Shown in pieces: positions 15,435 through 46,100 of a DNA stretch of 64,000 nt. Origin of the DNA: Botryotinia globosa (taxonomy: Eukaryota; Ascomycota; Leotiomycetes; Helotiales; Sclerotiniaceae); NCBI GenBank assembly GCA_014898425.1, contig RCSZ01000002.1, forward strand, positions 434,001 through 498,000. The letters are read 5' to 3'. The notes below the pieces were generated by a model that did not search any database, was not told where the DNA came from, and saw only the letters and a program-made list of their open reading frames with translations. The position numbers were made by a program, and so were the translations under genes. Within the stretch, counting starts at the first letter, position 1; each line of letters starts with the position of its first letter.

Positions 15435-16064
15435 TTACTTTTTGTAACTTCCCTTGAAAACCCTCAAGAAATCATTCTCTCCATCACCCTCGTTCCATCT
15501 CACAAGTGGTTTTAATCCCGCGAATTTCCAAACGCCATTAACCTTCCTATAGTAATGTTCATTGGTGGCATGACTATGACCCTTCAACTTGATCTCCTTC
15601 AAATCCGCATCTTTATACACTTGATGACCAGCTCTCAATTGATGATGACCAATAACGTAATCGTCTGAGATTTTTTCCCAGCGGGTAGCACCGAGGAGAT
15701 GTTGGGTCTTGACGCAAGGATCGCCGAGGAAATCATCATCGGTTACCATGGCCATGAATTGGGAAGCGGGCATGGCATCCCAGCGGGCTTTGCCAATGGT
15801 AGTGTAGTCTACCAGGAGCTCGGGTGCGATGATGGACTCGAGTCTTTTCCAGTCCTGTGGGAGTGTTAGGAGATGTGGGAGAATTGGGAGGGAGGAAGTT
15901 TGGGGTTGGGTTACCTTTGCATCGTAGCTGTCACCCCAGTCGAAGACTAATGCTGTGAGGTCGAGGTAATCTATATCTTATTAGCATTATCCTTATCATC
16001 AATTTATTGTCCGAAGACAAAGTATAAAATGCTTACCCTCGAATGAAATTCTGCCTTGAGCCAT
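15435..16064 (-). CDS. scd1: scytalone dehydratase (DHN-melanin)
   Basis: Cofactor-free dehydratase converting scytalone to 1,3,8-trihydroxynaphthalene and vermelone to 1,8-DHN. Exons on the minus strand are 16064-16037, 15970-15915 and 15854-15435. They give 167 residues, close to the 172 of the Magnaporthe enzyme. Residues corresponding to its active site are kept: Tyr25, Asp26, Tyr45, His80, His105 and Asn126. The Ser129 equivalent is Ala124. Conserved blocks include DWGDSYDAKDW, QHLLGATRWEK, GHHQLRAGHQ and GVWKFAGLKP. It is divergently arranged with the naphthol reductase at 17560 and is part of the melanin locus. The small first exon (28 bp) is inferred from the splice consensus and the homologous N-terminus. 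Confidence 0.95.
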
Positions 16065-17559
16065 ATTGATTGAGTATGTGTTGTTTATAGAGACAGAAAT
16101 CGATGTAAATATGAAGACGAGTGTGAATAGAATGTCAAAAGGAAAATCGAAAGGGCAACGACGACTTCCACATCATATATGTACACTACTAGAGCTAACG
16201 ATCCAAGCATGAGCTACCTTGAGCTTGAGCTTCGCGCCGCTTCGATTCTTCGCGGCCTCGCTCTTTGGTGAGATTCCTGAGCCCGAGTCCGGCTGCTTGT
16301 ACAACCTCCGGGACGAGTATGCACGCCATGACCCCCCCGGTACCTTTTTTTCCAATGGATACAATAAACATTATCCTAGTGATAGTGTGGTAGAATGCTG
16401 TCAATACCGAATATTGTTCGGACTTCCTCCAGTTTTTGGACGGATCTGAAACAACTAAAGCGAACTGTAGAGGAATTTGTTGTTTCTCATCACATCGCAA
16501 CAATGGTTGGCTCCGTAAACCAAGGCTGGAATGGTGATGATGAAGTTGATGACGATGAGATTAGTCCGGACTTTCCTGGGATCGTGTTACTGCATGTTGT
16601 GTTCTGGCTGCATCTCGCAATCGCCCTTGATCTTGTTTCATGGTGAATGGCTACTGTTCTGCTGTTAGATCTGTCAAACTGAATCATGAAGTTATCAATG
16701 TTGATCCAAAGACAAGGGTTCAGGTGGGGAGTGACCTCAATGTGGGGATGTTTCAACCCTAAAGATAGTAGTCAATAGCCTAGCCAAAGCGGCCCTCACT
16801 CATTGCATGTAATAGTATCGCCCAACAACTTTGACAATTTCTCGTATTAATTGGGAAATATTTCCCGTTCACCAAACTCAGTGGGATTTAGATCAGATGA
16901 TTAAAGACCTGAAAGTAGAATAAAACTTCTCGAGGAAGAAAGGATCCAGCCTCCATGCGTCATATGATTGGTAGATGATCAGACCTTCAGCTTGCAAAGC
17001 CTTCGCTTACCTGGCTAACCTAGTGAGTGAGCGGACTACACTTGATCCTACTACCAAAATCCGTGCATTGCCGTGCGGAGAATTGTTGAAACATATTATC
17101 AACAATTATCATGAATATAAATTGGGGAATTTATAAATTGTAGAGTTATGATTGTTTGGAGTTCGCGAGTTATTGGGCCCTGCCTTTGGTTGATACCTTA
17201 TCGGGTAATAGTGATGATCTGTAATTCGCACTTTTCTTATTCTCATCAGCGATTCATCGCATCGGAATTGCATGGGTGTCAGTATACACAAGAATTTCTA
17301 ACTGCACGAGCACTGCCTATGGATGGAATGGAAGCCTCGAAAGCCTCGCCGCGTTCTTATGTACGTCCGAAGACCGAGAGGTCCGAGGAGCTGTCGTGGC
17401 CGGGTTTGTCCAGTGATATAAAATGATCGTTGCCCAATTCAATATGCAACTTCATTTATCGTTCCACGCTTTATATCGCTGTATAATTTTTCTTGCACCT
17501 TTCGTACTTTCATATCATATACCCATTCTTACGTTACGTTAAACATCTATAAAAACGTA
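16065..17559. promoter_or_regulatory. divergent intergenic region between scd1 and the naphthol reductase gene
   Basis: 1.5 kb with no supported gene. It probably holds both promoters. A TATAAAA at 17417-17423 lies 137 bp before the reductase start. The rest shows no repeat or motif that I can interpret. Confidence 0.45.
17417..17423 (+). promoter_or_regulatory. candidate TATA box of the reductase gene
   Basis: TATAAAA is followed by a pyrimidine-rich stretch (TTCATTTATCGTTCC and CTTTCATATC) before the ATG at 17560, as is usual for a strongly expressed fungal gene. Assigned from motif and spacing only. Confidence 0.4.
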
Positions 17560-18460
17560 ATGTCTGTATCACCAGCACCATTCAAGACTCTTGAGGGAAA
17601 GGTCGCCCTCGTAACAGGTTCCGGTCGTGGAATTGGTCGGGGTATCGCTCTTGAGCTTGCTGCACGCGGTGCAAGCGTTGTTATCAATTATGCCAACTCT
17701 GCCGGACCAGCTGAAAAGGTTGTCAAGGAAATTGAGGCACTCGGTAGCAAGGGATTTGCTATCAAAGCCGATGTCTCCAAGGTCCCAGAAGTTAGACGTT
17801 TGTTCGAGGAGGCTAAGGCACATTTCGGTAAGCTCAATATTGTTATGAGCAATTCGGGCACCGAAATCTTTAAGGAGGAGGAAGATGTTACCGAAGAGGA
17901 TTACGACAGAGTTTTCGGCCTTAACACCAGAGCTCAATTCTTTGTCGCTCAACAAGCTCTTATCCACCTCGAGGAATACGGAAGAATTGTTTTGATGTCC
18001 TCTATCGCTGCCAATATGTCTGGTGTACCAAACCATGCTTTGTACGCTGGAAGTAAGGCGGCCGTCGAAGGTTTCGTCAGATCTTTTGCCAAGGACTGTG
18101 GTAAAAAGAAGATTACATGCAACGGTATTGCTCCCGGTGGAATCAAAACCGATATGTACGAGCAGTAAGTTTTTCCAAAGCCTAGCATCAAGGAACAACG
18201 CTAACACAGAAATAGAAATGCATGGCATTACGTTCCAGGTGGATTTGAAGGCATGGATGTAGATATCATTGATAAGGGACTTGCTTCCGTATGCTCACTT
18301 GGACGTGTCGGTGTCCCACAAGATATCGGAAGAGTCGTATCATTCTTGGCAGGCCCTGAGTCTGAATGGGTCAATGGTAAGGTCTATCAAAAAATAAAAT
18401 TATTCGTGTTACTAACATTATGTAGGACAAATTCTTCAACTCAATGGTGGTGGAAAGTAA
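17560..18460 (+). CDS. brn2: hydroxynaphthalene reductase (short-chain dehydrogenase, DHN-melanin)
   Basis: NADPH-dependent reductase of tetra- or trihydroxynaphthalene in DHN-melanin synthesis. Exons 17560-18164, 18216-18376 and 18426-18460 give 266 residues. The SDR cofactor motif TGSGRGIGRG lies near residues 20-29 and NYANS near 45. The catalytic Ser is in LMSSIA, and Tyr and Lys are in YAGSK. IAPGGIKTDMY and the tail QILQLNGGG match the 1,3,8-THN/1,4,6,8-T4HN reductase group. Its neighbours are scd1 (divergent) and a zinc-cluster regulator (convergent). Botrytis carries two such reductases, brn1 and brn2. I assign brn2 because I recall it as the cluster-linked copy, so the number is less certain than the family. 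Confidence 0.88.
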
Positions 18461-18671: not shown

Positions 18672-20757
18672 TTAATTTAGCCATATATGCATTCCAGGTT
18701 CATTTCTGACATCACATCCACTACACACAATATGAGTTAGTACACACTTTAAGGGTGAGTTTTTCACGATCTTTGTGACAAAGTGAGGCAACGTACTCCA
18801 GAATACTTCTTGTCCAATATCGGCCCTTGCCCAAGTCTCTTCTATAAGTATTAACGCTTTCGTCATAGGCTTCGCAGGTAAAGATAGTTTGAACTCTTGG
18901 AAGCGAGTAATGATGAACCGGCGAGCTGCCGCAATATCCACTTCAAAATTAGTGATGCTACTGGAAATTGCTGCACTACTCAAGGTGGAACTATGTCTGT
19001 AACCAGGTCCCTCAAATTGATTTGCTCCGAACGGTGTATCGGTAGAAAAGGCGTTCATTGATGCTGTAGAGAATTTAAGTTCACTTGCCGCAACAATCAT
19101 AATAATAGGCTGAAGACATTGGGTACCAGATGTTGACGGTATTTTCTCGAGAAGAGATGTTGCATGTAGCGCAAGCGATATCAAAAATTCTTCGACAGAA
19201 TGCGAAACTGGCAAGGACAATATCTCTTGAGAGTCAGGCTGTCGATTTAAGTAGATTGAAGGAAATACACGATATATCTCCAGGAGAGCAGCACATCGAT
19301 ATGCTTCCGCTAGCAAGATGTACTGCCTAACGGGCGTATTCTCGTCACCGGCATCGACAAGTTCGGTTTCGGTTGGTAGATTTACTGCCAGTAGTTTTTC
19401 TTCCAAATGCCGTGCTCTGTTAGTCCACTCGATGCTAGCAAAGACAGTTGATTCAAGAGGTATAGAATCGAAATCAAAGAAGGGATCACTGAGAGGAACA
19501 TTTGGAATTGGACTGAATGTTGACTTTCGATAAGAGCGAATCAGCCTTCCGACCTGAGCGAATAATCGCTGAATCTTTGGCGCTACTCCAGTCCAGGGAT
19601 GAGGAAATATCTGGTGGTCTGTATTTGGAGCGGTTGCGATTTCTACTAGGGTACTGTTCTCCTCTAGCATGGCGATATTTTCCTCGTCTTCAACAAACCC
19701 AGCCAATAAATCCCAGTACAAAATACACTGCTGAAAAAACTCATTTTGTCGGCGCACTTTGTTATCTGGATTTGCACCTTGTCGTGATAGGCGTTGCTTG
19801 TACAATCTCTTGGCTGTCTTCAGATGTGCTAGACCTAAATCTCGAGGATTGTGCCAGGCTGTAGTTTGACCGACTAAAAGCACGGTCAAGAGAGTCTTGT
19901 CAATATTATCATGAGATTCAACCCCAGCACGGTTCGATTGATATAAGCACTTGAATGTCTCTCGTTGCATTTGAGCTCCGACAACGGACATGCGTGGGAA
20001 GTCATGGGAAAGATAAGCAGCAGCCATGCTCTGAATAGCGTAGTATATTTGTGCTGAGTCGTCCCAGAGTTGGCCAACGGTAGACCGAAACGGATTAAAA
20101 ATGCCATCAAATGAGGAGAATATTACACAGATATATCTAAAATAGTACTCCACAAGCATGGTTGGAAGATGAACGAGAAACTCAGGTACAGTCGAGGTGC
20201 TCAGTTGATACCGAATGGCGGAAAGACTGTCAGGGAAATTTGGCGTGGTCAATCTCCGAACATTAGTCCCAGGGCTCTGTACAGATCCATTTTGGCTTCC
20301 CTCACAGTATTCGGCATGTTCAACAATCTCGGAATCATCTTCTTTTGTGTTGGATTCCGGCAACCCTCCACCAGGCATTTGGTCAACGGCAGATTTCAAA
20401 ACGAGGTCCAATTGTCTCTTGAGAGCTTTCGCTGATGATGGTAGCGGCCTATCATTATTCTCGACAAGAATCTTCTCGTGCTTTGTCGACCAAACTAGTC
20501 GTTGTGAAGCATAGCAACACTCTGCTTTTCTTTTGACGCATTGAAGGCAATGCGGCTTCTTCTCATCAGATTTCAACTACCTCCATGTCATTACTCAAGT
20601 TATTATGTTCCTGACAAGCGAATCTTACACGTTTGGTCTTGCATCTTTGACAGCCCTGTCGAGATTTCGGGGCTCGACGAGCATTGGTCACATTTACCTG
20701 ACCTACAATTGAAGAAGATAGAGTGCTTGAAACCTCTGAAGTGGAGGGAATATCCAT
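18672..20757 (-). CDS. Zn2Cys6 transcription factor with an altered zinc cluster
   Basis: Fungal binuclear zinc-cluster regulator. Exon 1 (20757-20629) and exon 2 (20576-18672), split by a 52 bp intron inside the zinc cluster, give 677 residues. The cluster has Cys36, Cys39, Cys53, Cys56 and Cys63, but position 46 is Ser (codon TCT) where the third Cys is expected (CX2CX6-S-X6CX2CX6C). The linker and middle homology region look normal: YCEGSQ, LVHLPTMLVEYYFRYICVIFSSFDG, DDSAQIYYAIQSMAAAYLS. The rest is open and uninterrupted for 634 codons. It sits between the melanin reductase and a second zinc-cluster gene, so it probably belongs to the ZTF-type regulators of conidial melanin. The exact C-terminal exon end could differ if a late intron was missed. 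Confidence 0.85.
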
Positions 20758-22009
20758 CGCGGTACGTAATAATCTTGTTGGGGAACAGTTGAAACTCGAT
20801 TGGCATCAACCAACACTCTGCCTAGGTAAGTATTGTCAATAGCAAAATGGATTTGAATATCAAGAAAATGTAAACAAATCATTGAGGACCTCAGGAACAT
20901 GATTCAGAGTGGGGAAAATATGCCAAGTTACACGTGACTCCACCAACTTGAATCATGTTACTTTTGAGAGGATCAATTATAGTTTGAGTTTGTTTTCATC
21001 AACAATGTAACAGATATTGCACTCGAGTAGAGTTTTCTCAATGCTACAAGGCTATTTCTTTTAAGCAAAAGAGATGAAACAAGGAAGAAAGTGTAGGAAA
21101 TTGTAGGAAATTCTCAAGTGTATTCACGTGATATTAAAGCCCTCGGATATATCTAGGACTACTTGAGTAGGTAGGACTACGCGGCAAGAAGGTTGGCTGC
21201 ATTGACGATGTGTGTTCTGTTCTTATTCCATTCAAACTCACAACCCGTGCGAGATGGATTGACGTTTAATATTCCGATCACTTCAAGAGCGTTCCTCTAA
21301 AGGCATAGTTGTCACATTTCACGGACTTTCAAATGGAGTTGTGGGTCCATGTGATATCTAGTTCCAACTATCTCAAAGTCACCGTCATCAACTGGCCCAG
21401 ATATCCCTGGTGTTTGGGGCGTTGAAGAAGAATCATTTTTACTTCAAGGTCAATTGTCGTCAACTCCTTCATCATTCTAGAAGTTCTATTGATGTTCCAA
21501 TGTTCTGCAAAGGTCCCGGCGTTGGTCTTTATCTGGATTAAGAGCTAAAATTGCTAAAATTTGAAACATCTCTCGATTCGAAACAAGTCTTCAGACAGAT
21601 AAGGGTTAACTTTATCATCGGATGATGTCTGTGAGGACTACGTTTCTGTCTCATATGAGGTTGAGATCTTGTGTGGTTGGCTCATGGTGACCACCTTACT
21701 GATACTCGTCTGTCATCTTCTACCCATAACCTTGGATGGTCATGCGGCAGGTTATATTGCTATTCTTTGAAGAACTGCCATACTTCTTTTATTGACGGAT
21801 AGGGCGAAACAACTGATGTAATTCTATAAAAATGGATTAGACTCTTGGCGGTCGCAGCATATCAGCTCGCAATACAATTATCAAACTTATTTATTAACTA
21901 ACTGTCATTACCTCGCATCATATTTGCACCGTAAAGGGGAATCATTGCGAATGGTGGAATTTTGATAGCTCTTTAAGTCCAGGTTCAAATTTTCTGGCCA
22001 ACACGGGAA
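20758..22009. promoter_or_regulatory. divergent region between the two zinc-cluster genes
   Basis: 1.25 kb with no coding sequence seen. It would contain the promoters of both regulators. No clear repeated operator is visible by eye. Confidence 0.4.
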
Positions 22010-24100
22010 AACCATCCAAAGGATGCTACTTATGTAGAGTGAGGCGGATCAAGGTACGTTTTCTCTTTTCGACACTTCAGTATCATAGTATGGAGCATTG
22101 GTTTCTAATCATAATTTCAGTGCGATGAGGCTAAGCCTTCGTGCATGAAATGTCAAAAGTCAAAACGAGAATGTCCTGGTATGGTGTTGTTCCAGTACAT
22201 ATAATCTATCTCTCATTATTAATCACAATAACAGGCTATAGCGATTAGTTCGAGCTCAAACTTAGAGATCAAACCAAAATCACCAAGCGAAAGTCTTCAG
22301 CGTCTTTCGAAACTAATACTCCAACTTTCACAGTAGACTCATATAGCTACCAATTTGGCCAAAGTAAAATGAGCGACCGACGAAAAGGAGAATGAATACC
22401 TCGGACAATGGAATCATTTATAGAACTATCGATTCCATCAACGATACAACCAGGAACTCATTCTATATGTCTTCATACGCTAATTATAATTCAACAGAGC
22501 CAAGTATGCCAATATCACCAGTCTCAGACATCGAGAGTGAGCTGTCCTGGTCACCCAAAACTGTTATTCCTCGTCAATTCTCGCCCGCAATCGATCAACA
22601 AGCCACCTGCTTTTTCTTGTCTAATTTTGTTCTTCTTCCACGAGGACACACAGCGAAAGGAAATCTAGATTTCCTCATACCACTAGTATATGCCAGCTCA
22701 ACAGAAACGTCACTTGTGCTTGCTCTGAATGCTGTAGCACTCGTGGCTTTTGCGAATCAACCAAATGCTAGAAAGCTTCTACCTCTAGCTGATAAGCAAT
22801 ATGTGACGGCTTTAAATCAAATCAACAACGATCTACAAGATGTACACAAAGCAAAGGAAGATGCAACCTTGGCAGCGGTGTTCTTGTTGTCCTTCTATGA
22901 GGTAAAGTGACTTTAGATCTTGGTATTCTTTCATGCATAATGCTTACTCTCAGACCAGCAAATAAGCTCTCATTCCATGTCCCTAAGTGGATGGGAGTAT
23001 CATATCAATGGAGCTGTAGCACTAGTGAAAGTTCGAGGCAAAAGTCAGCTCGACACAAAGATTGGACGCTCTTTATTTGATGCAGTCAGAACGCATATGG
23101 TAATTCTCTGATACCGACGAATGAATGAAGCTAATTATTCGTAGACTGTCGAGTGTATCAGCCGTTCGAAGGAAGTTAACGAAGGTATCGATTGGTGGAC
23201 ATCTTTTGCATCAGAGGATAGAGTACAACATGCTGTATCAGTGCTCAATCTCAAGGTTGCAGACTTACGGGCAGAAACCCACAGAATCTGCACTCTTGTA
23301 GGACATACCACAGAAAATATCGAGAAGGTACTCAACCACATGAAGAAAGCAGAACGGATCGAAAAGGAATACGTCGACTGGTATGCCAATCTTCCTGAAG
23401 AATGGACACCCAAAGTGGCGGCTTGGGTTGATGATACAGTGGAGAAAGACTTGGAATGCACAGCTTGTCATCCAGGAAGAGTTGACGTATACGACGAGCT
23501 GTGGATGGCTACTACACACAATATTGTACGCGCCTCGAGATTATTCATCCTCACCACTATTTTGCGATGCACCGCATGGATTACTGCCGACCTCGATTAC
23601 AAACTCACACCGGAATATGTCAAAGTTTCGCGACAAGCAAGTCTATTAATTGAGGATGTCGTGTCTAGCATTCCATTTTTCTTCGGCTGGAAAGCCCCAG
23701 ATACCGAATTTCCCATAACCGAGAACTCATATTTTCCCTATGGAAGCGATAGCAAAATAAGTGGGAAGGGTGTAACGGGCGTATGGGCTATATGGCCAGT
23801 GTTTGCAGCCGCTGCATCTGATTTTGCGACTAGTTCTCAACGATTATGGCTAAGAGGACGGCTGAAATATATTGCGGAACATTTGGGAATTTGTCATGCA
23901 GAGATGTTACTCCAGGTATGTCGGGCTCTTTCCTTTCTGGCTATTTTGTTAACAATTTTCCGTAGTTACCAACTCGCTATCCCTCAACTTTCATATATAG
24001 AGATAAGGTCAAGATTGAGGACCTGAATAGAACCAAAATGGCCAGTATGGTTGGAGGAAATTATTCATCGATGTGCGTGACTCCTGCGATGAGTACATAA
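22010..24100 (+). pseudogene. second Zn2Cys6 regulator, disrupted between DNA-binding and regulatory parts
   Basis: The 5' part encodes a perfect zinc cluster (CX2CX6CX6CX2CX6C) on exons ending 22053 and 22121-22178, continuing at 22235. After CPGYSD an in-frame TAG occurs at 22246-22248. The following conserved stretch FELKLRDQTK continues the same frame to a TGA at 22393. The regulatory body is in another frame: 22392-22901, 22959-23099, 23145-23915 and 23966-24100. These join cleanly to 518 residues from an ATG at 22392, with typical fungal-specific domain features (LALNAVALVAFAN, YVTALNQINNDL, DELWMATTHNIVRASRLF). No in-frame ATG precedes the zinc cluster. The body is well preserved, so it may still be made as a protein without a DNA-binding domain, or the break is recent or a sequencing error. 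Confidence 0.7.
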
Positions 24101-24537
24101 TTTTGGATTCCCTTTGTATCAACAATTGTACACTAGAATTTCTTTCTCTGTTATTTATTACAATTTTACAATATAACTTTCTTCACTTGGAACGAAATAA
24201 GAATGACCCATTGACATATCAATACATATCAATTTCTTGCACCAATCAAAATCGGCTGATAGTTCCCGCACAAAATTGATACAAAGCGGATAACGACACG
24301 AGCGGTAAGTCGACCACCCTACTTTCGGGCCACCCCTCTTTCGGGCCACCCTTTTACACCAAAAATCACTTTTTTGGCTTATCAATATCTCTATTAATAT
24401 TGAATATAATTTAATAAAAATTTAGATTTATATAATTTAAGCTATTCTAAGCTTATACTAGAATTTTTAGAATTTTAGGATTTTTCTGGATCGATTTTTA
24501 GAGCTTCAAAATATCGATTTTTAATTTATATATAAAT

Positions 24538-24698
24538 TGTGAGGGCGCACAGACCCTCCCTGCACGTAACCAGCTATACTAACCATTTTAACTAGTCTTT
24601 TCAAGTATAAGTTGAAAGCCTCGCTTCCAACTTCCTCTTAGATCTTTATCAATAACTAAATCATTAAAACAATTCCTTTTTAATTTACAATCCTTACA
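24538..24698 (+). repeat. 5' LTR (161 bp)
   Basis: Begins TGTGAGGGCGCACAG and ends CCTTACA. It is less mutated than its partner at 32932-33092, keeping most of the C and G residues. Confidence 0.9.
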
Positions 24699-27600
24699 GA
24701 ATTATTGATCAATCTTTAAATTAAATAGAAATTATTTGTATATAAAATATATATAAAACAAATCAAAACTATTCTTAAAGAAAATTATAATAATCTATAA
24801 TATCATTTAAGCAAACTTTAGGCTATTTATAGGTTTTTATATAATAGATTAAATTAACAAAAATAACTATCAGAAATATAAGATTATAAGGGTTAATAAA
24901 ACCAAAAGTGTTATTTAATCCATCATTTTCCGAATAAAATAAAACTTTTTAATTAAAACAAATAATAATCGAAAAAGTGTATACAAAAGAAGTTATTAGA
25001 TAAAAAAAACAATCAGAAATAAATATAGATTAAAACAAAAAAGAAACAAACTACCCAAATCTCCGAATTCGATTTAAGAAAATAATTAGTATAAGCTTTT
25101 AAAGAATAAACTATTCAAATCTTTGAATTTAATCCGAGAAAAAAGTTAATATAAGTCCTAAAAAAAGAAATTAAACTAAAAGTTTTGTATTATTTAAAAT
25201 AAGTGAATCTAAAACTCTTATTTCAATATATTTTTATTTATTAATTATTACTAATTATTATCATTAAATTAATTTATAAGAAGATATGAATAATTAAATT
25301 ACTATAAAATAAAAAGATTCCTTATTTTATTTAAATATATTAAAAGAATTATAAAAGATTATAATTTAATAAAAGAAATAATTAAAGGTATGGGCTAAGA
25401 AAAATAAAAAAAGAGAAATAAAAATAATAACAATAAAATACTAATTAATAATATCTATATATAATATTTCGATTGATAATATAATAAAACCTAACAATTT
25501 ATAATTCTTTATAAATAAAAGAATCCCTATAAATATTAGATTAAGTAAATTACTATTACTAAATATTTGAAATGCATTAATTATTATCAATATTAATACT
25601 CTACTTACACTATTTATAAAATCCTTTTAGGATAAACCTAGAATTAAAGCATTTTTATTTTTCAAAAAAGGAAAGACTGACATTAAACTATAAATTATAA
25701 AATTAAAAGATTATTTTATATTAGAAAATATCTCCGATATTATATAACAAACAGTATTAATAAGAAATTATATTAATAAAGATATTAAAAAGCAAATTAT
25801 ATTAATATAACTATATAGTGATTTTTTAATTATTATAAAATTCAAGAATTAAAATCTTTTAAAGAATTAATTGTTTAGTCAATATAATCCTATTAATACA
25901 GATCTAAAAGTTAACCTCCAGATAACAAAAGTTATTATATTCAAAAAACAAATGATACAAAACTTTAATAACTATTTCAAATCAATTTTTCAAAATATTT
26001 TGTAAATATATAAAAATTAAACAATAATAATACATTATTTCATAAAATTGACTAAATTTATTCTCTTATATATTTATATAGATTATAATGGAATATTACC
26101 TACAATATTCGAAGAACTAAAAATAGTAGTATAAAATATAGAGAATTTCCTATATATATAAAAGCGATTGTTTTTAATTAATAATAAACAAATAAGAATT
26201 AAAAAAGAAAGAAAACCAAACGAGGATATATAATACAATATTCCTAATTCAACTAGATTCAATAACAATTTATATAAAAAAAAAAAAGAAATAAAATTCC
26301 CCGAAATCTTAACAAAACAAAAAAAGAGATGTAAAAAAAACAAAATATATTTTAAATATAAAGAAGCAAATTATTGAATTAATAATTATAAAAATTAATC
26401 AATTAATAAAAAAGAAAATAAATAATTGGAAAATAATAATTCTTTTTGATAATAAAAGTATTAAAATAAAAGGGGAGTAATTATTTCAAAAAAAAGCTAT
26501 ACTAAATTAAAAAAAAATCTAGAAAAATCTTCAATTGTTATTATAAAAAAGAATAAAAACTTATACAATTATCGATTATTAAATTTAATACAAAAAACAA
26601 TAATCTAATATCAAATATTTAATATTATATAATTAATATATTTAGATTAAGCTAAAAAGATATTATTAATATTAGTTCTAATATAAAAAAGGGAATTATA
26701 ATAATTAGTAATATTAGGATTATATGATATAAAATTATTAATAAAAATAAAGAATCAATTATATTAATATTATAATTATAAGAATATTATAGATTTCTTT
26801 TAATTATTGAATATAAAAAACCTTTTTTAAATAATAATTATTATTTATTTAAATAAAAACAAAAATAAAATATTATTCATAATAATTATTGATTTTATTA
26901 TAATAATAAATTTCATTTCTTTAGAGATAGTAAAACAAATTTAATATAAAAAATTAAATATATATTATTTATTAATTAGAGATATAAATAAAAATATTTT
27001 AGAATTAATATCTATTTCAATTTGTAAGGAAATTAATTTCGAATGTTTATTAATCAAAGGTAATATATTATTAAAATTCAAAGTTATGTTATTAAAAACA
27101 GATAATATTATATTCGAATTTTTATGGTTTTAATAGTATAACTTAAAAATAGATTGGAGATTAGGTAAAATGTTTAATAATAACAATTCAGAATTACAGG
27201 TTATATTAAATATATTTGATTTCTTGAATTTTATATATAACACAATTAAAAAAACAAAGATTATATTAGAAAAAGATATAATCGTAATAGTATTATTATT
27301 TCTAATATTTATAAATAATAATAGGATAGATTATACAATTATTCAAAAAACATTTAGGAAAATCCTAGATATATATTCGAAATATTTTTTATTATTTAAA
27401 AAAAAAAAAAGAAAAATTATTACTTTATAAATTCAGAATTGATTACAAAATTGTTTTTCGAAAAGATTATTAATCAAAATTTGGGTTGTTATATAATCTA
27501 TCCAAATATAAATTTGAAATGTTTAGAAAATATATTACAAAGATGCTTGTATTAGGATTTATAAAACTATTAAAATTAGAAATAAAAGTATTGCTTTTAT

Positions 27601-30319
27601 TTATATATAAAAAAAGCATCGAGGAATTGTATTTATATATAGATTTTAGAAATATAAATAATAATATAATATTAAATTAATATTCTATTTTATTTATTTT
27701 GAAGATATTGAATTGCTTTGAAAAGGTAAAAATATTTACAAAACTTAATTTATGTAAAATCTATAATTTAATAAAAATTTATTTAGATAATAAATAGAAA
27801 ACAGCCTTTTATATATATTTCGAATTATTCGAGTATTTAATATTATTATTCGATTTATATAATATTCTAACTACTTTTTAAGTATATATTAATCAATATT
27901 TATAAGAATTCATTAATAAATTAGTTATTGTATATTTAAACAATATTTTAATTTACTTGAAAAATAAAGAAGATTACAAATCTTATATAAAACAAATCTT
28001 AAAAAAATTATTGAAATGAAAATTATTTTATAAATTTGAAAAATACTAATTTAATATAAAAAAAATGGAATTTCTAGATTATATTATTTTAAATAAAAGA
28101 ATTGCTATGAATTAAGTTAGGATTAGTTTAATTATAAAATAGCCAATATCAAAATCAATATAAGAAATATTATTATTTCTAGGGTTTTATAATTTCTATA
28201 AGCGATTTATATTTAGTTATAGTAATATTGTATTATTAATAACAAATAGTATAAAAGAAAGAAAAAAGTTTGAATAAATCAAAGATTATAAAAAAGCTTT
28301 TAATATATTCAAAACTGTTTTTATTAAAGCTCTATTATTATATTATTTTATTATAATACTAATCTGTTTTTTAGAAACGGATATATTTATTAAAATATTA
28401 TATAAAATATTATTATAAATCCAAAAAGATATATATAAATATTCAATTACATTTTATTTTCGAAAACTAATATCAACAAAAATGAATTATATAATATTCA
28501 ATCAAAAATTACTTACAATAATAGAATTTATTAAATATTAATATTATTTTCTAAAAAAAGTTTAATATCAAATAATCATCATTTTCGATTATAACAATCT
28601 AAAGTATTTTATAATCTCTAAAATCTTTATAAGAAGATAAACTAAATAAACAATAATATTATCAACAATTAACTATATCATTGTATATAAATTGAAAAAA
28701 AGAAATTTTATTAATAACCTTTCAAGAAAAATAGATTATTAATATAAAATAATAGAATCAATATTTTTTCTAAAATTATAAAAACAAATTATAGATTTAT
28801 TATTATTATTAAATAACTAATTTAATATATTATATCTAATTAAAGATATTACAAAAAAGGAAATCAAAAAAGATATATTGTATATATTTAAAAAATTATA
28901 AAAAATAAATAAAAACCATATTAATATAGAAAAAACCGAATTCCTTATTATACTCCAGATTAGAGAGATATCAAAAAAAAGCTTAAATGATATTTAAAAA
29001 AGCTTAAAACAATAACTAGGTTTTATCAATTCAATTCGATATTATTAATAATCACATTCTAATTCAATAAGAATTTATTTCAATTTGAAAAAAGGATTAT
29101 AATATTATAAGGGAATAAAATTATTTATTCTAATAAATAAAATATTATAAAAAGATTTAATAAGGGAATTCTATAATTTCCCAATTATAAAACATTTTGA
29201 TAAAAACAGAATAATTAGAGTAATAAAAAAAATATTATATTAATAAGGAATGAATATAAATATCAAAGATTATATATACTTATATTTAATTTATTAATAT
29301 AATAAATTATTATATATAATAACTATTGAAAAATTAGCTTCAATATCTATTCCAAATAAATTATAAAAAAATATAATATTAAATCTAATTATAGATTTAT
29401 TAATATCAAAATCTAAAGCAAATTTTAATAATAGAAAAAAAGGAAATATATAATTATATTCTGCTTATAATATTATATTAAATATAATTTATAGAATAAT
29501 AAAAAAGATAAAGTTTTTATTATATAGAAAGGATATAATATTAATTCAATTTATTTATCTTTTTTTAAAAAAAGTATTTATAAAATATAAAATATCAAAT
29601 TCTATTATTATAAATAAAATAGATTTGTTTATAAATATATTTTGAATAATATTTATAAAGTATTTAAATATAATTCAAAAATTATTTACAATATTCTATT
29701 TATAAACAAATGGTTTAATTAAAAGATTAAATCAAATTATAGAAATATATTTTAAAATATATATTAATTATAAATAAAATAATTAAATAAATTTATTATA
29801 TTTAATAAAATATATATATAATTCAATTTCTATTTCAAATACTAAATTATTGTTTTTCAAGATAAATAGGAAAAACATTCTATTATTTCAGATTATTGTA
29901 ATTATAAATAAAAGATTAAAAAATGCAAAACAATTAGTAAAGAAATTGAAAGAATTATACCAATAATTAATAAAAGATTTGATATATATATAAGATATAT
30001 AAACAAAATATTATAATATAAAATACCACTTATTATTATTTAATATTAGAAATCAAATATAATTATTCTATAAAAACCTAATAATAAATCAAAAATATAA
30101 AAAACTAAAATTTAAAAAATTAAAATCTTTCAAAATACTTGAAAGTATTGATTTGCAAAGCTATCAAATCAAACTCCCAATATTCTACAAATACTATAAT
30201 ATTTTCTATATAAATTTATTAATATTATAAAAAAAAAAAAAAAAAAAATAGATTCAAAAATATATTGAAATTATTTATAATAGAAATAATTATAAATAAA
30301 ATTTATAGAAATAAAATAT

Positions 30320-32931
30320 TAAAATAAAAAATAAAAAGAATTCTAGATTTAAGAATATATAGATATTAAAGAAAACTATAATATGAAATATATTGAAAAA
30401 ATTATTTTCAAAATAAAAATAATTAATAATTATTAGAAAATCTAAAGAATTCTAAAAAAGAAATTGTGGAATTTTATAAAAAAAAATCTTTTATTTTAAA
30501 TAGAATTATAAAAAAGAATTATAAAAAAATAATTATATTAATTTTATTTCTATTCTCTCAAAAAAAGAAAATCTAATAAAATTTAAAAGAATTATAATTA
30601 ATTTTTGTTTTACAAAATATATTATAAATATTAAATTATAATTATTTGTTAGTTGATAATTATAATTTAGATTTGATAATATAATTGTTTATCAAAAAAA
30701 AAAAAAAAAAAAAATTTCAAATTTATTTAAATCGAAAATGAATATTGATTGTATATTTCAAAATAAAAGATACAAAGTAATTAGTAGATATTAGAACAGA
30801 ATCTATAATATAAATAAGAATATATAAAGTAAATCTCATTTTCAAATAAAATAAAATAAAAAACTATAGTTTTCTTTTTAATACAATTAAACAGAAAAAT
30901 GAACCCTCAATTGTTATTATCAATCTACAAATTTAAAATTTTATTAAAAAAATTATATTTTCTAATCAACATTATAATATAATAAACTACAAATAAAAAA
31001 ACGAATTATTAAATAGTTTTTTTATTATAATTTAAATTATTATTATTATTTATTTAAAAACAAAAATCAATATAAAGATAAAATAACAAATATAATCAAT
31101 TCAAATGAATTTAGTATTATTTTAAAAGTAAAAACAAAGCTAATTCTATTATATATATTTTAAGCTCAAATCGGAGTATAAGAAAAAGAAATCGAATATT
31201 TATTTATTATAAGTTTTAAGAGAAAAAACAAGGAATATTAAAAGAAGATAAAGTAAGTAATTATCAAGATATATAGGAAAATATAGGTTTAATTTCAATT
31301 AAATCTTTGATCAAATAATTATAGGCAAATATAGATATTGATAACAATCCTTAATATATTCAAATCTGAATATAAGGAATTTAATTAGAAGGATTAAAAA
31401 GATCAAAATATAATAATAAAAATATTTTTAGAATATAGTTAAATAATGATTTATAAAGTATACAAGAAATATATCAAATATTAAGAATTTGTTTTATTAG
31501 TTTCTAATAAACTAAAAGGATTTATAGGAATTATTCAAATTGAATAATAATAAAAACAATTATTAGATAAAAACAATGTTGAGGTAGAATCTAGGAATAA
31601 TTTAGAATTACTTTATAAAATCGATAATAATTATATTTATAATATTATAAAAAACCAGGAGATAAATAATATTATATTAAAGGATTAGGGTGTAATTACG
31701 AAAAGAAATAATCTAAATTATTAATATTTGAATAACAAATTTGAATAATTTATATTAAAATCTATAAAAGAATTAATTGAAAATAATATTGAGTATTTTT
31801 GTAGTAAAATTAATAATTTATATTAATTGATATAATAATATAGTGAAAAAATAGAACAAGATTTTTTATAATAAATTTTTTATTAATAAAATATTATATA
31901 TAGATTTAATTCAAAATTAAGTAAATCAAAAAGAATTAATAGTGATATAAGTGTAATTTATAGATATTTGTAAATAGATTTGTATATACAAAAGAAAAGA
32001 AAATTAGTAAAGCAAATAAACAAAATTCTAAAAACTATAGACTTTAAATTATATTATAAAGATTTATAATAAGAAGTTTTAGTATTTATTAAGATTTGTT
32101 TAGATAGAGTAGTCTTGTATATAAGTTTTATTAATAAATTATAGAAATTTGTATAAAACGATTTAATAATTATAAATAATCTATTTATTTATAGAGATTA
32201 TATATAAAAAGTATTAATAAATTATAATATAAAGAATATAAACTTTTATAAAATAATTAATATAGAGATTATAGTATAATTAGTTCGAAATCGTTTATAT
32301 AATTAATATCAATTGTAGAATATAATTTAATTAAATAAGAAAGTTATATATTATTTATTAAAAGAAAAGGAGAGTTTCGAATTAATTGAATTCTTTTGAA
32401 TTTGTATTATAATATTTAGTTTATTATTATGAAATAATAAATATAATATTAATATATTAGTTATTCAATCAAAAGATTAAGTTTTAAATAATATTGATAG
32501 AAATAAAGATTATTATTTGATAGAAAAAAGAGTTTATTATTATTATTATTAAAAATCAATAATATAAAGCCTAATATTGAATAGATTTTAAATAATAATT
32601 AGAAAAAACTTAGGTGGTATATAAGATTCTTTTCTAATTAATTAATGAATTTCCTTTGTTTTATTTTATAATTGAACTTTGATTTTTATTAAACAATTAT
32701 TAATATAATAATATCGATAATAATGAATTTACAATTATTATGAATAATAGAAGTAATTTGGGATATAAAGTATTATAATTATAAGGATAATTTGGAATAT
32801 AAAGTATTACGATTATAGAGGCAATTTGAGATTTGATTAATAAGGTTTTTTGTAATTTTTTTTTTGCTTTTTAATATTAATTTTTATTATTAATAAAATA
32901 ATTAGAGGTTTATTTACAAAATAGAGGTGAT
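30320..32931. other. unassigned AT-rich interior between integrase and 3' LTR
   Basis: About 2.6 kb follows the last integrase similarity. Most gypsy elements end soon after integrase, so this is extra sequence. It is saturated with stops and I cannot recognise a product on either strand. Confidence 0.5.
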
Positions 32932-33092
32932 TATAAAAGTGTATAGATTTTTCCTATATATAACTGGTTATATTAATTATTTTAGCTAGTCTTTTCAAGT
33001 ATAAATTGAAAGCCTTGCTTCCAACTTCCTCTTAGATCTTTATCAATAACTAAATCATTAAAACAACTCCTTTTTAGTTCACAGTCCTTATA
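32932..33092 (+). repeat. 3' LTR (161 bp)
   Basis: Same length as the 5' LTR. In the first 45 aligned bases nearly every difference is C-to-T or G-to-A relative to the 5' copy, the signature of RIP. The terminal TG and CA have become TA. Confidence 0.9.
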
Positions 33093-33683
33093 TAAATCAT
33101 ATACAAATTTAAAATTTTATAAAATCTTCAATAACTTTTTAACAATAATTATTAAAAGAAAATTATATATTTTTTTGAAAAATTCAAATCTGAATCTATA
33201 TAGAAATTCAAAAAAAATTTCCAAAAAATGCATAAATATAGAGATATAGTATATAGTGAGTTAAAAGTAGTATAAATAATCCCTGTAATTTTGAGGGTAC
33301 CCTTTTAAATATTTATTTATAAGGAATTTTTTATTTTTTCAAGATCTTCCAAATTGAATATCTTATAAATTTATAATAAAATTTTATAATTTATTTTTAG
33401 CTATTTTCCCTTAAAAGTTATTATAGATTTTATAGAATTTTAAATTTATATGTGATTTGTATATAAATTGAAAATCGATATTTGAAGCTTTAAAAATCGA
33501 TCCAGAAAAATCCCAAAATTCTAAAAATTCTAATATAAATCTAAAATAGTTCGAATTATATATATATAAGTTTTTATTAAATTATATTCAATATTGATAG
33601 AGATATTGATAGGCCAAAAAAGTGATTTTTAGTGTAAAAGGGTGGCCCAAAACAGGGGTGGCCCGAAAGTAGGGTGGTTGACT

Positions 33684-34348
33684 TAGATTATCCGAACCGA
33701 TCGGCTATCCTACAAACACACGTCCATTCTTGGTACACCTTGCTGTCCTCTTCCAAAATACGACGAAGTTGTAGGTAACGATCGTATATTTCCTCTTTTG
33801 TTCCTTCAAAATGCTAGGATGGTAAACGGAGACGTGGAATCCTGTGCTGTGCAAGGCAGAGTATTCTACCCCAACGGACGTCCGGTGCGTTTGTCTTGAA
33901 CCAACAAGTTTGTATGTTGGGACTGGAAGTAAGAATGAGAGTGACAACCTATCTAGTTTTCGTCAATGACTCGCGAGAGGTGAGAGTGCGTGGACATGTA
34001 TTCTTAGCAGACAACTGTCATTGCATACTAGGCAGAGGGTCGTTTATAGCAAATAAAGTACCATTATCACGTGTTTGTAAAATTTCGAACATCGAATTTA
34101 ATGAGAAAACGATTCTTAATTACTTGTCATTTCTGCACAGTAGAGCAGATCGAGACTACGAGTACATCGAGGTTGATTTGTAAAAAGATATCTTCTCGGA
34201 TCACGTGTGGCTATCTCCCCGACATGTGGGCCGCATCTCTATCCGCTTGAAGCTATAGACGGGTATAGAAAAAAATAAAGAACTCTATTCAAATAAAATG
34301 AAACATCCGAAAAATAATTTGAACTAAATCCAATTCTGCACCTCCATC
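33684..34348. other. right flank of the transposon with a possible protease-like fragment
   Basis: Normal base composition resumes at 33684. A plus-strand frame (33896-34183) is described separately. The last 150 bp should hold the promoter of the hydrolase gene. Confidence 0.5.
33896..34183 (+). CDS. unrecognised ORF with a faint retropepsin-like stretch
   Basis: A 95-codon frame opening with ATG and ending at TAA 34181-34183. The stretch GHVFLADNCHCILGRGSFI resembles the end of retropepsin-like domains (hydrophobic, then ILGR-FI). A short upstream frame ending NGRPV at about 33890 could be an earlier exon. It lies immediately beside the transposon, so it may be a remnant of another retroelement or a truncated host gene. 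Similarity is by eye only. Confidence 0.25.
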   Translation: MNQQVCMLGLEVRMRVTTYLVFVNDSREVRVRGHVFLADNCHCILGRGSFIANKVPLSRVCKISNIEFNEKTILNYLSFLHSRADRDYEYIEVDL

Positions 34349-35231
34349 ATGCCCTTCATCACCCTAAACCAAAAATCAATCTTCTACACCCTCACCCCGC
34401 AAACTGAAAATCTCCAGAAGCCGGTAACCACGTTGTTCATCCACGGGCTCGGTTCCTCGTCTACTTTCTACCATACTGTTATTCCCTCCCTCTCTGGCGT
34501 TTCAACATGCATTGCTCTGGATACCCCCGGATCCGGGTTATCTTCTCTAGATGATTCGAATTCGCCACAAACTGTAGCGTCGATTGTCGATGATGCAATT
34601 GCACTTCTCGATGCACTTTCCGAAACAGCAGTTAAGGGAAAGGTCTGGGTGGTGGGCCACTCGATGGGTGGGATTATTGCGTGTGAGCTAGCTATTAGAT
34701 ATGCACAAAGAGTTGAGGGGTTGGTTTTGATAGGACCCGTGGTTCCAAGTCCAGTTTTAACAGAGGTCTTTGGGAAGAGGATCGAAACGGTTAGGAAAGG
34801 TATGAGAGATTTCTTGTTTTGGAATTGGGGGTTCAACCAGGTTACTAATTATGCTAGATGGACTTGAACCGCTCGCCAATTCGATACCAGAGGCTGCAAC
34901 AGGTGCTCAAGCTTCGTCTACCCAGAAAGCTTTTATCAGGAGTTTGATCCTCGGGACTAGTACTCGGGGCTATATATCATCATGTGAAGTTATTGCTTCG
35001 GCTAGTAGACCGGATTATGCTAAAATTGACGTACCAATGATGGTTCTGGCTGGAAGTGAAGATAAGACAGCGTCTTATGCAGGGTGTAAAATGATTCATG
35101 ATGAAGCGGGTGTGAGTGCACAGAAGAAATTTGTTAGAGTTCTTCCAGGGGTGGGCCACTGGCATGCTATTGAGGCGCCGGAATCTGTGGCAAAGGAGTT
35201 TACGAAATTTGTTGAAAGTATCAATAATTAA
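34349..35231 (+). CDS. alpha/beta hydrolase, 3-oxoadipate enol-lactonase-like
   Basis: Serine hydrolase of the alpha/beta fold. Exons 34349-34799 and 34858-35231 (58 bp intron) join to 274 residues. The oxyanion motif HG is at residues 32-33, the nucleophile Ser105 is in GHSMGG, the acid is probably Asp219 (AGSEDKT) and the base is His251 (GVGHWHAIEAP). Length and the short cap resemble PcaD-type enol-lactonases, which hydrolyse 3-oxoadipate enol-lactone in the beta-ketoadipate pathway. The ring-cleavage gene 26 kb to the left gives some contextual support. It also sits inside the melanin locus, where hydrolases such as Ygh1 shorten polyketide chains, but it lacks the larger Ygh1-type architecture as far as I can judge. 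Substrate is open. Confidence 0.8.
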
Positions 35232-36620: not shown

Positions 36621-37426
36621 TCATAAAGAGGTTGCTCGTGATTTTCCCTCGTCTCCCGATCCATCAACCAGTTTTTCTTCATCATCCTCAGATTTCACGG
36701 TATATGATCCTGCGCTTCCTTGAGCAGCGAGACTACCTGTTCCATTTGGAACCCAGAATCTCAAATCCACGCGTAAAAATGGATATCCATATACAACTAT
36801 AATCTCAAGCATAAATCCAGTAGTATAGAAAACAGGTTTGCTAAACAGATGACTGGGTGCACTGATTGGTTTCTCAATCACAGCTCCTAGAAGACGTGTG
36901 ATTGCCCCTGTGACTAGAAGTGCAGTAGCGAGCATAAGGATTATCGGCTTCATTCTGAATCTGCCGGCGCCGATTTTTTCGACAAGAGTAGAAGATGGAA
37001 TTGCGGTAGCAAGAGTGACGAAGATAGCTGGGAACAGTGAAAGAAAAAGTGTCCAACATGAACCAAACAAGAGGAGGTTCTTTGTTGTTTCAAGAGAGCG
37101 AGGGTTGAGCGTGAAAAAACTGATAGTGAGAGAGATAATGTTCCAGAATATGATAAAGGGGACGGATATCAAAATCGCGAAGAAAGTTTTCGAGACGATG
37201 GGATTCCAGCCGATATTTGGATGGGTGGCGCGGAGGATTCGTTGGGTGAAAATTACGTTTACGGCGAAGAGAACGACAACTCTGGTTGTTCGTCAGTACT
37301 GAAATTCCAGAACTGGGTTGGAGATGGTAAGATTACTTACCCGGCATTTTCAAAAATCAAAGCCGCAACAGCAGTACTATTGTTCTCCGGACGAAATGCC
37401 CACACAATTCTCATAATACAAGTCGC
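36621..37426 (-). CDS. DUF3112-type integral membrane protein, N-terminus missing
   Basis: Minus-strand exons 37426-37341 and 37281-36621, joined by an intron with GTAAGT and CCAG, give 248 codons. The sequence follows the fungal DUF3112 membrane family: MRIVWAFRP, VVVLFAVNVIFTQRILRATHP, a transmembrane segment ISVPFIIFWNIISL, VEKIGAGRFRMKP, FMLEIIVVYGYP and RVDLRFWVPNGTGS. About five hydrophobic segments are visible, followed by an acidic Ser-rich tail. The usual first two membrane segments, roughly 80 residues, are not found upstream of an acceptor-like TAG at 37427. Either a distant 5' exon exists or the gene is truncated. No function is established for the family. Confidence 0.6.
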
Positions 37427-43145: not shown

Positions 43146-46100
43146 ATGGATGTCATATTATTCGGAGATCAAACTGCAGACTGCCAGTCATTCCTCAAGA
43201 AGGCACTTCGTCGCAAGAACTGTCCTATCTTAAGCACCTTTTTAGAACAGGCCCATGCCGCCCTTCAAGATGAACTTTCATCACTTCCATCGACTGCCCG
43301 ACAACATGTTGCTGTTTTCTCAAGTGTTTCCGAGTTCACAGAGCGATATTTCGAGGCCGACCACCCGGACTTGGCAGTCGAAAGCGCCATTACTTGCTTG
43401 GCTCAATTGACACATTTTATTGGGTATGTATAGAATTTTGTAGAGGCAATTGGCCAAGAATACTTGAGCTGACCTGTCTTTCCTAGATTCTTCGAAGAGA
43501 ACCCACTCGCATACTTAGAGCCCTCTAGTACTGAAGTGCTTGCAGTATGCACTGGGCTCCTTGCCGCATCCGCAGTTGCATCATGCAAATCGCTCACATC
43601 TCTAATTCCCCTAGCTGTGCAAGCAGTACGCATTGCCTTCAGGCTGGGATCAAGAGTTGCAGCAGTTGGAAACCAATTGGAAACCGCAAGTGATAGACAA
43701 AAGACCTGGTCTACAATCGTAATGGGCACAAACCCAGAGGCAGCAGAACATGCTTTGGCGGAGTTTAATGAGTCAAGAGGACTTGTCCAATCAACGAGAT
43801 TGTACATCAGTGCCATTGGTACCACCTCGATCACAATCAGTGGAACGCCTACCCTCCGAGCTCAGTTTTTTGAAAACTGTGAGGCATTACAAAATCTTCA
43901 ACGACGCGAAATCAGCATTCGAGGGCCATATCATGCCGCCCATCTTTATAACCCACAAGACATCGAGAGAATTCTGTCACCATCAATTGTGGAAAGTTTG
44001 AGCAGCTATTCATCAGTCTTGCCACTTGTTGGAACCCCTGCACACAAGGAAAGTATACCAACAGTTGACCTGTTCAGAAACTCCATTATGGAAATTTTGG
44101 CAGAGCAGGTGAAATGGGACCGATTGGTGAAACTGGCTGTTGCAGACGTTCGAGAGTCTGAACAAATCGAAGTCAGAGTTCTTGCCATGGGACCAACTGC
44201 CCTCGGAAACAGTCTTGTCTCGGGACTCAAGAATGCCGGTCGCTTCAAACTCTCGATGGAAGACCACATTTCTTACTCCATGCAAAACACCATTCCAAGA
44301 GGAATGGTAGGTAGAATGTCCGAGTCCAAAATTGCTATCGTCGGAATGTCGGGTCGATTCCCCAATTCGGCTGACCATGAAGCATTCTGGTCGCTCCTCG
44401 AGCAAGGTCTTGACGTCCACAGAGAAATTCCCGCCAACCGTTTCGATGCCAAATTACACTGCGATCCCTCCGGAAAAGGAAAGAACAAGACTCATTCTCC
44501 ATTTGGTTGTTTCATCGACGAGCCCGGAAAATTCGACCCTCGATTCTTCAACATGTCACCAAGAGAAGCTATGCAAACTGATCCAATGCAGAGATTGGCT
44601 ATCTCCACTGCCTACGAGGCAATGGAAATGTCTGGATTCGTCAGAGATAGAACTCCTTCCACCCAAGCACACAGAATTGGTACCTTCTATGGTCAAACTT
44701 CTGATGATTGGCGTGAGATCAACGCCGCTCAGGATATTGACACATATTTTATCACCGGTGGTGTTCGAGCTTTTGGACCTGGTAGAATCAACTACCACTT
44801 CGGCTTCAGTGGTCCATCATACAGCGTGGACACTGCCTGCTCGAGTAGTATGGCAGCTATAAATCTAGCAGTCACTTCATTACGTGCTGGTGACTGTGAT
44901 ACTGTATTCGCTGGTGGTATGAATGTCATGACTAACCCAGACATATTCTCTGGTTTGTCGAAAGGTCAATTCTTATCAAAGACTGGGTCTTGTAAGACCT
45001 ATGATGATAGCGCTGATGGCTATTGCCGTGGTGATGGTGTCGTCACTCTTATTCTAAAGCGACTTGACGATGCGGTAGCCGATCAGGATCCAATTCTTGG
45101 AGTCATTGCTGGTATCGCAACAAACCATAGTGCCGAAGCCGTTTCCATCACTCATCCTCATGCAGGCGCGCAAAAGTTTTTGTTCCAGAAAGTTATGGAC
45201 GAAGCTAGAGTAGACATTCGAGACGTCAAGTACGTAGAAATGCACGGAACAGGAACTCAAGCAGGAGATGGCGTAGAGATGGACAGTGTTTCTTCCATTT
45301 TTGCACCATCGAACAACCTACGCCGTCGTCTTGACCAACCACTGTTTGTAGGTTCAGTCAAGTCTAACGTTGGACACGGAGAAGCTGTTTCTGGTGCAAC
45401 TGCTTTAGTAAAGATCATGATGATGCTCAAGAAAAGTATGATTCCACCACATTGCGGAATCAAGACGAGAATCAACCAGACATTCCCCAAGGATTTGAAA
45501 GATAGAAATCTCAACATGGCTTTCAAGCCGACACCATTCCCTAGACCTACAAATGGAAAGCGATACGTCTTCATGAACAACTTCAGTGCCGCAGGTGGTA
45601 ACACCGCCACTTTGCTCGAAGATGCACCCATTCGACAGCTGGAAGGTTCTGACCCAAGAACATCGCAGGTTGTAATTGTGTCAGCAAAATCTCTTGCATC
45701 ATTCAGAAACAATGTTCAAAAGCTCCTCAACTGGTCAAGAGATCAACCTAGCTCATGTCTGCCAAGTCTTGCATATACCACATCTGCTCGCCGTTACCAT
45801 TACCAATATCGTATCGCAGTTGATGCCAAGGATTTGCAAAGCGTTCAAAATGCTTTGAGCGCTTACACAGAGGGTCCCCACGCTCCAGTATCGAACGTCA
45901 AGCCAAGAGTTGCTTTTGTTTTCACGGGCCAAGGATCACACTATCTTGGAATGGCTAAGGCCTTCTTCTGTGATATAGAACAATTCCGCAATGATGTCGA
46001 GGATTTTGATCAAATGGCCCAAGCTCAGGGTTTCCCATCCTTCATTGGCCTCATTGATGGAAGCATCACTGACCTCAGCAGTGCCTCGCCAGTTATGACT

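Follow-up and report, generated by a model that had tools for sequence, protein, structure and literature searches.

Miniature inverted-repeat transposable elements (MITEs) of Tc1-Mariner type, 481-813 nt long, have been described in Sclerotinia sclerotiorum (PMC4188875). Gypsy chromoviruses are a known group of retrotransposons (PMC2864245, PMC2832683), AT-rich transposon islands mutated by repeat-induced point mutation (RIP) are found throughout the genome of Botrytis fabae (PMC10971195), and the Bcpks13 conidial melanin cluster is known from Botrytis cinerea (PMC9239091, PMC8637145). In the window analyzed here, which is the stretch of 64,000 nucleotides at C2:434001-498000 in the 45.7 Mb genome of Botryotinia globosa (the genome over which all genome-wide counts were taken), a MITE is split by a Gypsy long terminal repeat (LTR) retrotransposon within a melanin gene cluster.

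The outer element resembles the S. sclerotiorum MITEs in its TA duplication, size, inverted repeats and local DDE_1 relatives, whereas its inverted repeats are about 273 bp long compared with 36-70 bp in the full elements, and its tips start with AGTC rather than ACGT, the TcMar-Pogo family excepted (PMC4188875). By type it is likened to the Fot1/pogo (Flipper-like) MITEs of Sclerotiniaceae. The inner element shares with Gypsy chromoviruses the LTRs, the order of reverse transcriptase (RT), RNase H and integrase, the 5 bp duplications and a chromodomain match in two of its relatives (PMC2864245, PMC2832683). It differs in its short 161 bp LTRs and in about 2.4 kb lying past a chromodomain-like remnant. 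MAGGY is a Gypsy chromovirus that serves for comparison. As in the B. fabae islands, the window holds stop-rich and AT-rich transposon remnants of Gypsy and Fot1-like elements; those islands are genome-wide, whereas here a single locus reveals two successive insertions in their order (PMC10971195). Because a scytalone dehydratase, a tetrahydroxynaphthalene (THN) reductase, two zinc-cluster factors and a polyketide synthase (PKS) fit the Bcpks13 cluster, the locus is assigned by its gene content to the PKS13-type conidial melanin clusters (PMC9239091, PMC8637145; the two sources disagree on whether brn1 belongs to the cluster). Here 9.4 kb of transposon sequence lies in the cluster interval. 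Among titles and abstract openings, with subscription papers outside the scope, no published report of this nest, or of any transposon in a Botrytis PKS13 cluster, was found.

A two-step transposon nest

A preliminary description of the window had proposed an outer element with 273 bp inverted repeats, split by a retroelement with 161 bp LTRs, and both the coordinates and the alignment agree with it (Table 1). The inserted LTR element occupies 24538-33092 (8,555 bp) at base 232 of the MITE, and the perfect TAAAT duplication claimed for it is present on its two sides. Rejoining the two MITE parts yields 232 + 588 = 820 bp (816 bp and two TAs). The rejoined left arm (24306-24537 plus 33098 onward) was aligned with the reverse-complemented right arm, as the preliminary description had proposed, and 247 of 274 columns matched, TA included. 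The 42-base remainder of the left arm past the interruption scored 59 against the right arm, while the best control score was 39, both in 2000 mononucleotide shuffles and in 1646 AT-rich interior 45-mers.

The MITE belongs to a large family. A tip pattern of the terminal inverted repeat (31 bases, at most 3 mismatches) had 276 genomic matches, compared with 0 for the same pattern reversed as a control; with two tips per copy, these would correspond to at least about 138 copies. The comparison set consisted of the 39 best matches to the left arm besides the window (the best 40 of 491 candidates scored). Uninterrupted copies, which the preliminary description had proposed to seek in related genomes, were found in the same genome: 33 of the 39 have both tips, 788-831 bp apart, and six have one tip only. 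All 33 paired copies carry TA at both ends; the search pattern itself starts with TA. The modal length is 820 bp (20 of 34 full-length sequences compared, window included), exactly the length of the rejoined element, and across the join the eight intact copies inspected there agree with it except for C/T differences. The order proposed earlier, with the small element first and the retroelement second, is borne out by this length and this junction, and we hold with high confidence that the geometry is that of a two-step nest, in which the Gypsy element entered a MITE already in place. It is an ordinary transposon nest of a two-layer kind well known in RIP-competent fungi.

Two other explanations of the geometry were weighed. 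An assembly chimera could arise from the repetitive Gypsy family; however, a perfect 5 bp duplication and an exact modal length on rejoining are unexpected from a misjoin, and we regard such an artifact as very improbable. Even less credible is a single composite element, with inverted repeats and LTR cargo moving as a unit. Its outer ends would indeed be intact inverted repeats with TA, as observed, but the uninterrupted state of 33 of the 39 other copies, the inner element's own duplication, and another nest that differs in position and duplication all argue against it. A second, independent Gypsy-in-MITE nest is present on C14, where TTTAT is duplicated at MITE bases 407-411.

Among the single-tip copies, L060 and L061 are interrupted by members of the window's Gypsy family, and L053, L062, L066 and L074 run into other sequence, which may reflect another element or a deletion. 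The MITEs of L053 (C19) and L062 (C8) break off at nearly the same base (approximately 237-241), and the unidentified sequence that follows is shared by the two; it could come either from a common duplication or from another element preferring this site. The reverse arrangement was also detected: in L006, a MITE is inserted in an LTR of the window's Gypsy family, and CAAGTATAAG in the uninserted LTR of the window corresponds to CAAGTA[element]TATAAG in L006. The TA duplication, which in the window is seen as TA at both MITE ends, is thereby demonstrated at a paralogous site. Both nesting orders thus occur in this genome, and the MITE-then-Gypsy order holds at the window locus.

The history of the locus comprises three steps. 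The 816 bp MITE entered a TA between a transcription factor gene of the melanin cluster and an alpha/beta hydrolase gene, a Gypsy LTR retrotransposon then entered the MITE at base 232 and duplicated TAAAT, and RIP-type transitions appear to have ruined the Gypsy copy afterwards.

Identity of the two elements and traces of RIP

The outer element is classified as a MITE from its TA duplication, its terminal inverted repeats and its many copies of near-uniform length; that it has no coding capacity is judged only from its length and its GC content of about 20%. Most likely it was moved in trans by a transposase of the Fot1/pogo type (Tc1/mariner superfamily), as suggested by its tips and by local DDE_1 elements. 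There are 12 matches to DDE_1 (PF03184) genome-wide, four of which lie within elements of 1840-1983 bp having two MITE-like tips; all four DDE_1 stretches contain stops. At six of the eight tips, 38-40 of 48 bases are like those of the MITE, and at the other two 27 and 35 (ungapped); BLAST comparison of single tips gave E-values from 2.4e-11 to 0.005. Of the remaining DDE_1 loci, L039 has one related tip and seven have none within 1.5 kb. Weighing against this transposase assignment, a search of the 12 DDE_1 loci and their 1.5 kb flanks found no gene for a transposase bearing exactly the tips of the MITE. The obvious named candidate is Flipper (1.84 kb, with 48 bp repeats). At L031 (C3:2180549-2181061), the DDE_1 match lies in a stop-free open frame of 555 aa, and MITE-like tips were not found there.

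The inner element is classified from its remnants as a Gypsy LTR retrotransposon and probably belongs to the chromoviruses, the latter on the basis of two relatives and not of the window copy itself. Its 5' LTR has the ends TGTGAGGG...CTTACA, and its 3' LTR has TA...TA after transitions. Target duplications of 5 bp are found in the family, namely TAAAT in the window and TTTAT and CGACT in other copies. Among the 82 LTR-core matches fifteen LTR pairs were found, thirteen of which, including that of the window, span 8,455-8,576 bp. With 244 stops in the single full frame counted, the interior was searched with Pfam as three separate translated pieces, with X at stops. The remnants lie in the order RT, RNase H and integrase, the place of the integrase being taken solely from the weak match in the window. 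At an E-value of at most 1, RVT_1 has 72 matches genome-wide. In 17 cases a family LTR precedes the match on the same strand by no more than 9 kb; 14 of these lie at a common offset of 3036-3128 bp after the LTR start (3092 in the window) and 3 elsewhere. For the chromodomain (PF00385), a limit of E 10 gave 20 matches, two of which stand at the Gypsy-family offsets 5761 and 5797: C4:1579515 (E-value = 1.4e-4) is over the Pfam cut-off, and C17:785490 (E-value = 0.12) is below it. Two observations speak against the chromovirus assignment. The chromodomain piece of the window has no Pfam match at E-values up to 1, and one of the two relatives' matches is below the cut-off and surfaced only with the limit at E 10.

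Several further features of the Gypsy family were observed. The bases just after the 5' LTR (24699-24714 in the window) were compared with LTR bases 111-120 (24648-24657 in the window). They are complementary over 10 nt in four of ten family copies (L013, L015, L016 and L022), a length equaled in 4-9 of 2000 shuffles; in the remaining six copies, among them that of the window, the longest match is 5-8 nt. The pattern resembles the self-priming of Tf1/sushi-type elements. Between the chromodomain-like remnant and the 3' LTR no gene was recognized (30500-32931), and G strongly exceeds C over 31001-33000 (skew of 0.38 and 0.47).

The composition of the nest was compared with that of its surroundings. 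The GC content is 14% in the Gypsy element and 22% in the MITE, and 34% and 47% in the left and right 200 bp flanks. The Gypsy element has dinucleotide indices of 0.98 (TpA/ApT) and 1.11 ((CpA+TpG)/(ApC+GpT)); by the usual RIP thresholds the first index passes, and the second does not, which counts against RIP. LTRs are normally identical when inserted, and all 29 differences between the two LTRs of the window are transitions; on these two grounds, the Gypsy copy supports the claim that RIP came last, as RIP-type transitions appear to have followed its insertion. Changes are seen at 11 of the 18 sites in CpA/TpG context and at 18 of the 46 remaining sites; a CpA preference is not significant (P-value = 0.16, Fisher test). 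The same claim is not supported for the MITE: compared with the column majority of its family, the window copy shows 15 transitions in the RIP direction and 25 in the opposite one, and by this count RIP has not marked it more heavily than its relatives. The right 200 bp flank (TpA/ApT = 1.0, second index = 0.76) would pass both RIP thresholds, and the left 200 bp and the 3 kb flanks pass neither; leakage of RIP into the right flank is not shown, as 200 bp is too short and noisy to judge. Dating by LTR divergence was dropped because every LTR difference is a RIP-type transition.

The melanin cluster around the nest

The genes on both sides of the nest are listed in Table 1. Pfam matches in the synthase comprise SAT, KS, AT, a product-template-like DH, two ACP and TE, and over the first 500 residues of its open frame it shares 98% identity with B. 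hyacinthi and 97% with B. cinerea. For one cluster transcription factor the identity with B. cinerea is 87% (best match 91%). The closest matches among named proteins come from Botrytis, which points to a Botrytis species that is probably not B. cinerea. Factor 2 shows 85% identity to a B. deweyae protein over 99% of the rough query.

Table 1. Features of the nest and of the surrounding cluster, in window positions
Feature	Position	Strand	Remarks
Scytalone dehydratase, part of gene	15471..15857	-	PF02982, E 8.7e-62, no stops; C2:449471-449857
Tetrahydroxynaphthalene reductase, BRN-type, open frame	17422..18165	+	best PDB match 1ja9, E 2.3e-76
Fungal_trans_2 transcription factor 1 (zinc-cluster type by relatives), open frame	18675..20576	-	
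Zn2Cys6/Fungal_trans_2 transcription factor 2	21979..24100	+	exons joined by eye, approximate start
TA, left target-site duplication of MITE	24306..24307	.	duplication demonstrated at paralogous site L006
MITE left part (most of left inverted repeat)	24308..24537	+	24306-24537 97% identical to bases 1-232 of intact copy L004
TAAAT, Gypsy target-site duplication, left copy	24533..24537	.	
5' LTR, 161 bp	24538..24698	+	132/161 identical to 3' LTR; 82 LTR-core matches genome-wide
Gypsy internal region	24699..32931	+	
Reverse-transcriptase remnant, RVT_1	27630..28083	+	E 0.0087, below Pfam cut-off
RNase H remnant, RT_RNaseH_2	28284..28553	+	E 1.8e-6, 28.3 bits vs cut-off 29.8
Integrase zinc-binding remnant, Integrase_H2C2, weak	29136..29276	+	E 0.019, below cut-off
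Chromodomain-like remnant, by-eye reading	30334..30490	+	offset ~5796 from LTR start
3' LTR, 161 bp	32932..33092	+	
TAAAT, Gypsy target-site duplication, right copy	33093..33097	.	
MITE right part	33098..33683	+	left-arm rest 33098-33139, centre, right inverted repeat 33413-33683
TA, right target-site duplication of MITE	33684..33685	.	
Alpha/beta hydrolase gene, between nest and synthase	34328..35228	+	
DUF3112 protein gene, part	36624..37292	-	PF11309, E 1.2e-9
Non-reducing melanin polyketide synthase, PKS13 type	43155..49604	+	43473-49604 one open frame

The nest starts 205 bp past the stop (24100) of transcription factor 2 and is separated from the synthase by 9.5 kb containing at least two genes, those for the alpha/beta hydrolase and DUF3112. 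It had been described as splitting a melanin cluster between a regulator and the synthase. The assignment to a melanin cluster stands, but no gene is interrupted, and the hydrolase and DUF3112 genes intervene before the synthase. The nest lengthens the intergenic space, and none of the genes recognized in the analysis is cut. Monilinia fructigena has counterparts of the factor (DID88_000322) and the synthase (DID88_000324), and in B. cinerea the gene numbers of pks13 and brn2 are 08050 and 08100 (PMC7695001). From these numbers, a few genes between factor and synthase appear ancestral, a reading drawn from gene numbers only. Identification of transcription factor 2 as SMR1 was considered and rejected: it is a Zn2Cys6/Fungal_trans_2 protein of approximately 600 aa by its relatives, and BcSMR1 has 935 aa and clusters with PKS12 (PMC5733056, PMC9239091).

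Insulation or silencing of the PKS13 cluster, through heterochromatin spreading from the insertion, had been suggested and is not supported. The nest does lie inside the cluster, two Gypsy relatives have a chromodomain match, and the dinucleotide indices of the right 200 bp are RIP-like. RIP-mutated DNA, moreover, commonly carries trimethylated lysine 9 of histone H3 (H3K9me3) in fungi. However, the scytalone dehydratase match, the reductase, both factors and the synthase are open or aligned near full length, the GC content recovers from the 14% of the Gypsy element within 200 bp of the nest ends, and the synthase is distant, behind other genes. Silencing is therefore considered unlikely, and most likely the nest now acts as an inert AT-rich spacer. 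The locus offers a clean order of transposon insertion inside a fungal pigment cluster, with a change in melanin production not shown.

Random nesting and a possible seeding of AT-rich islands

Gypsy landings in MITEs were counted among 39 other Gypsy elements with flanks; the window was left out as the seed, and 40 of the 82 LTR-core matches were left out. Four of the 39 lie in MITEs (L018, L022, L026 with L060, and L028), while MITEs make up 876 of 62,971 bases (1.4%) of the other flanks, or 740 of 32,797 (2.3%) when only AT-rich flanks are considered (P-value = 0.002 and 0.011, respectively). These figures argue against random nesting, by which the two families, both accumulating in AT-rich regions, would come together by chance; such nesting would be a rival of targeting only and leaves the nest itself unaffected. 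Several observations favor it nonetheless. At an assumed MITE density of 3% the P-value rises to 0.03, and at 5% the excess is gone (P-value = 0.13). The MITEs of L053, L062, L066 and L074 end at unrelated sequence, possibly other elements, and the reverse order exists in L006.

The excess also rests on four events, two of which (L018 and L022) are less certain, and this weakens the case for targeting. The host MITE copies of L018 are only 75-80% like the reference, the best MITE alignment of L022 ends 8 bases before the LTR, and in L022 and L028 the MITE flank is seen from one side only. With three of 39, the P-values at the two measured densities are 0.017 and 0.058, and with the two surest cases they are 0.10 and 0.22. 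The excess of Gypsy insertions in MITEs is accordingly suggestive only, and fragile, and chance encounter has slightly better than even odds in our estimation. L018 itself consists of a solo LTR with CGACT duplicated; it is situated in the last bases of a diverged MITE copy and directly adjoins another MITE copy, which is partial.

A known mechanism able to produce such an excess is integration directed to heterochromatin by a chromodomain (PMC2832683). The recurrent pairing might be explained by integration guided in this way into heterochromatin that a mutated MITE had already seeded. We put forward tentatively, as the less probable alternative to chance, that a mutated MITE may serve as a seed: a Gypsy element with a chromodomain would read the heterochromatin of a RIP-mutated, 820 bp MITE in otherwise gene-rich DNA and insert there, giving rise to an AT-rich island of approximately 10 kb, and a recurrent seed-and-grow pair of this kind might decide where islands arise, including inside a pigment cluster. 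In this respect, the recurrent Gypsy-in-MITE pattern provides a testable hypothesis for the origin of isolated AT-rich islands in gene-rich fungal DNA.

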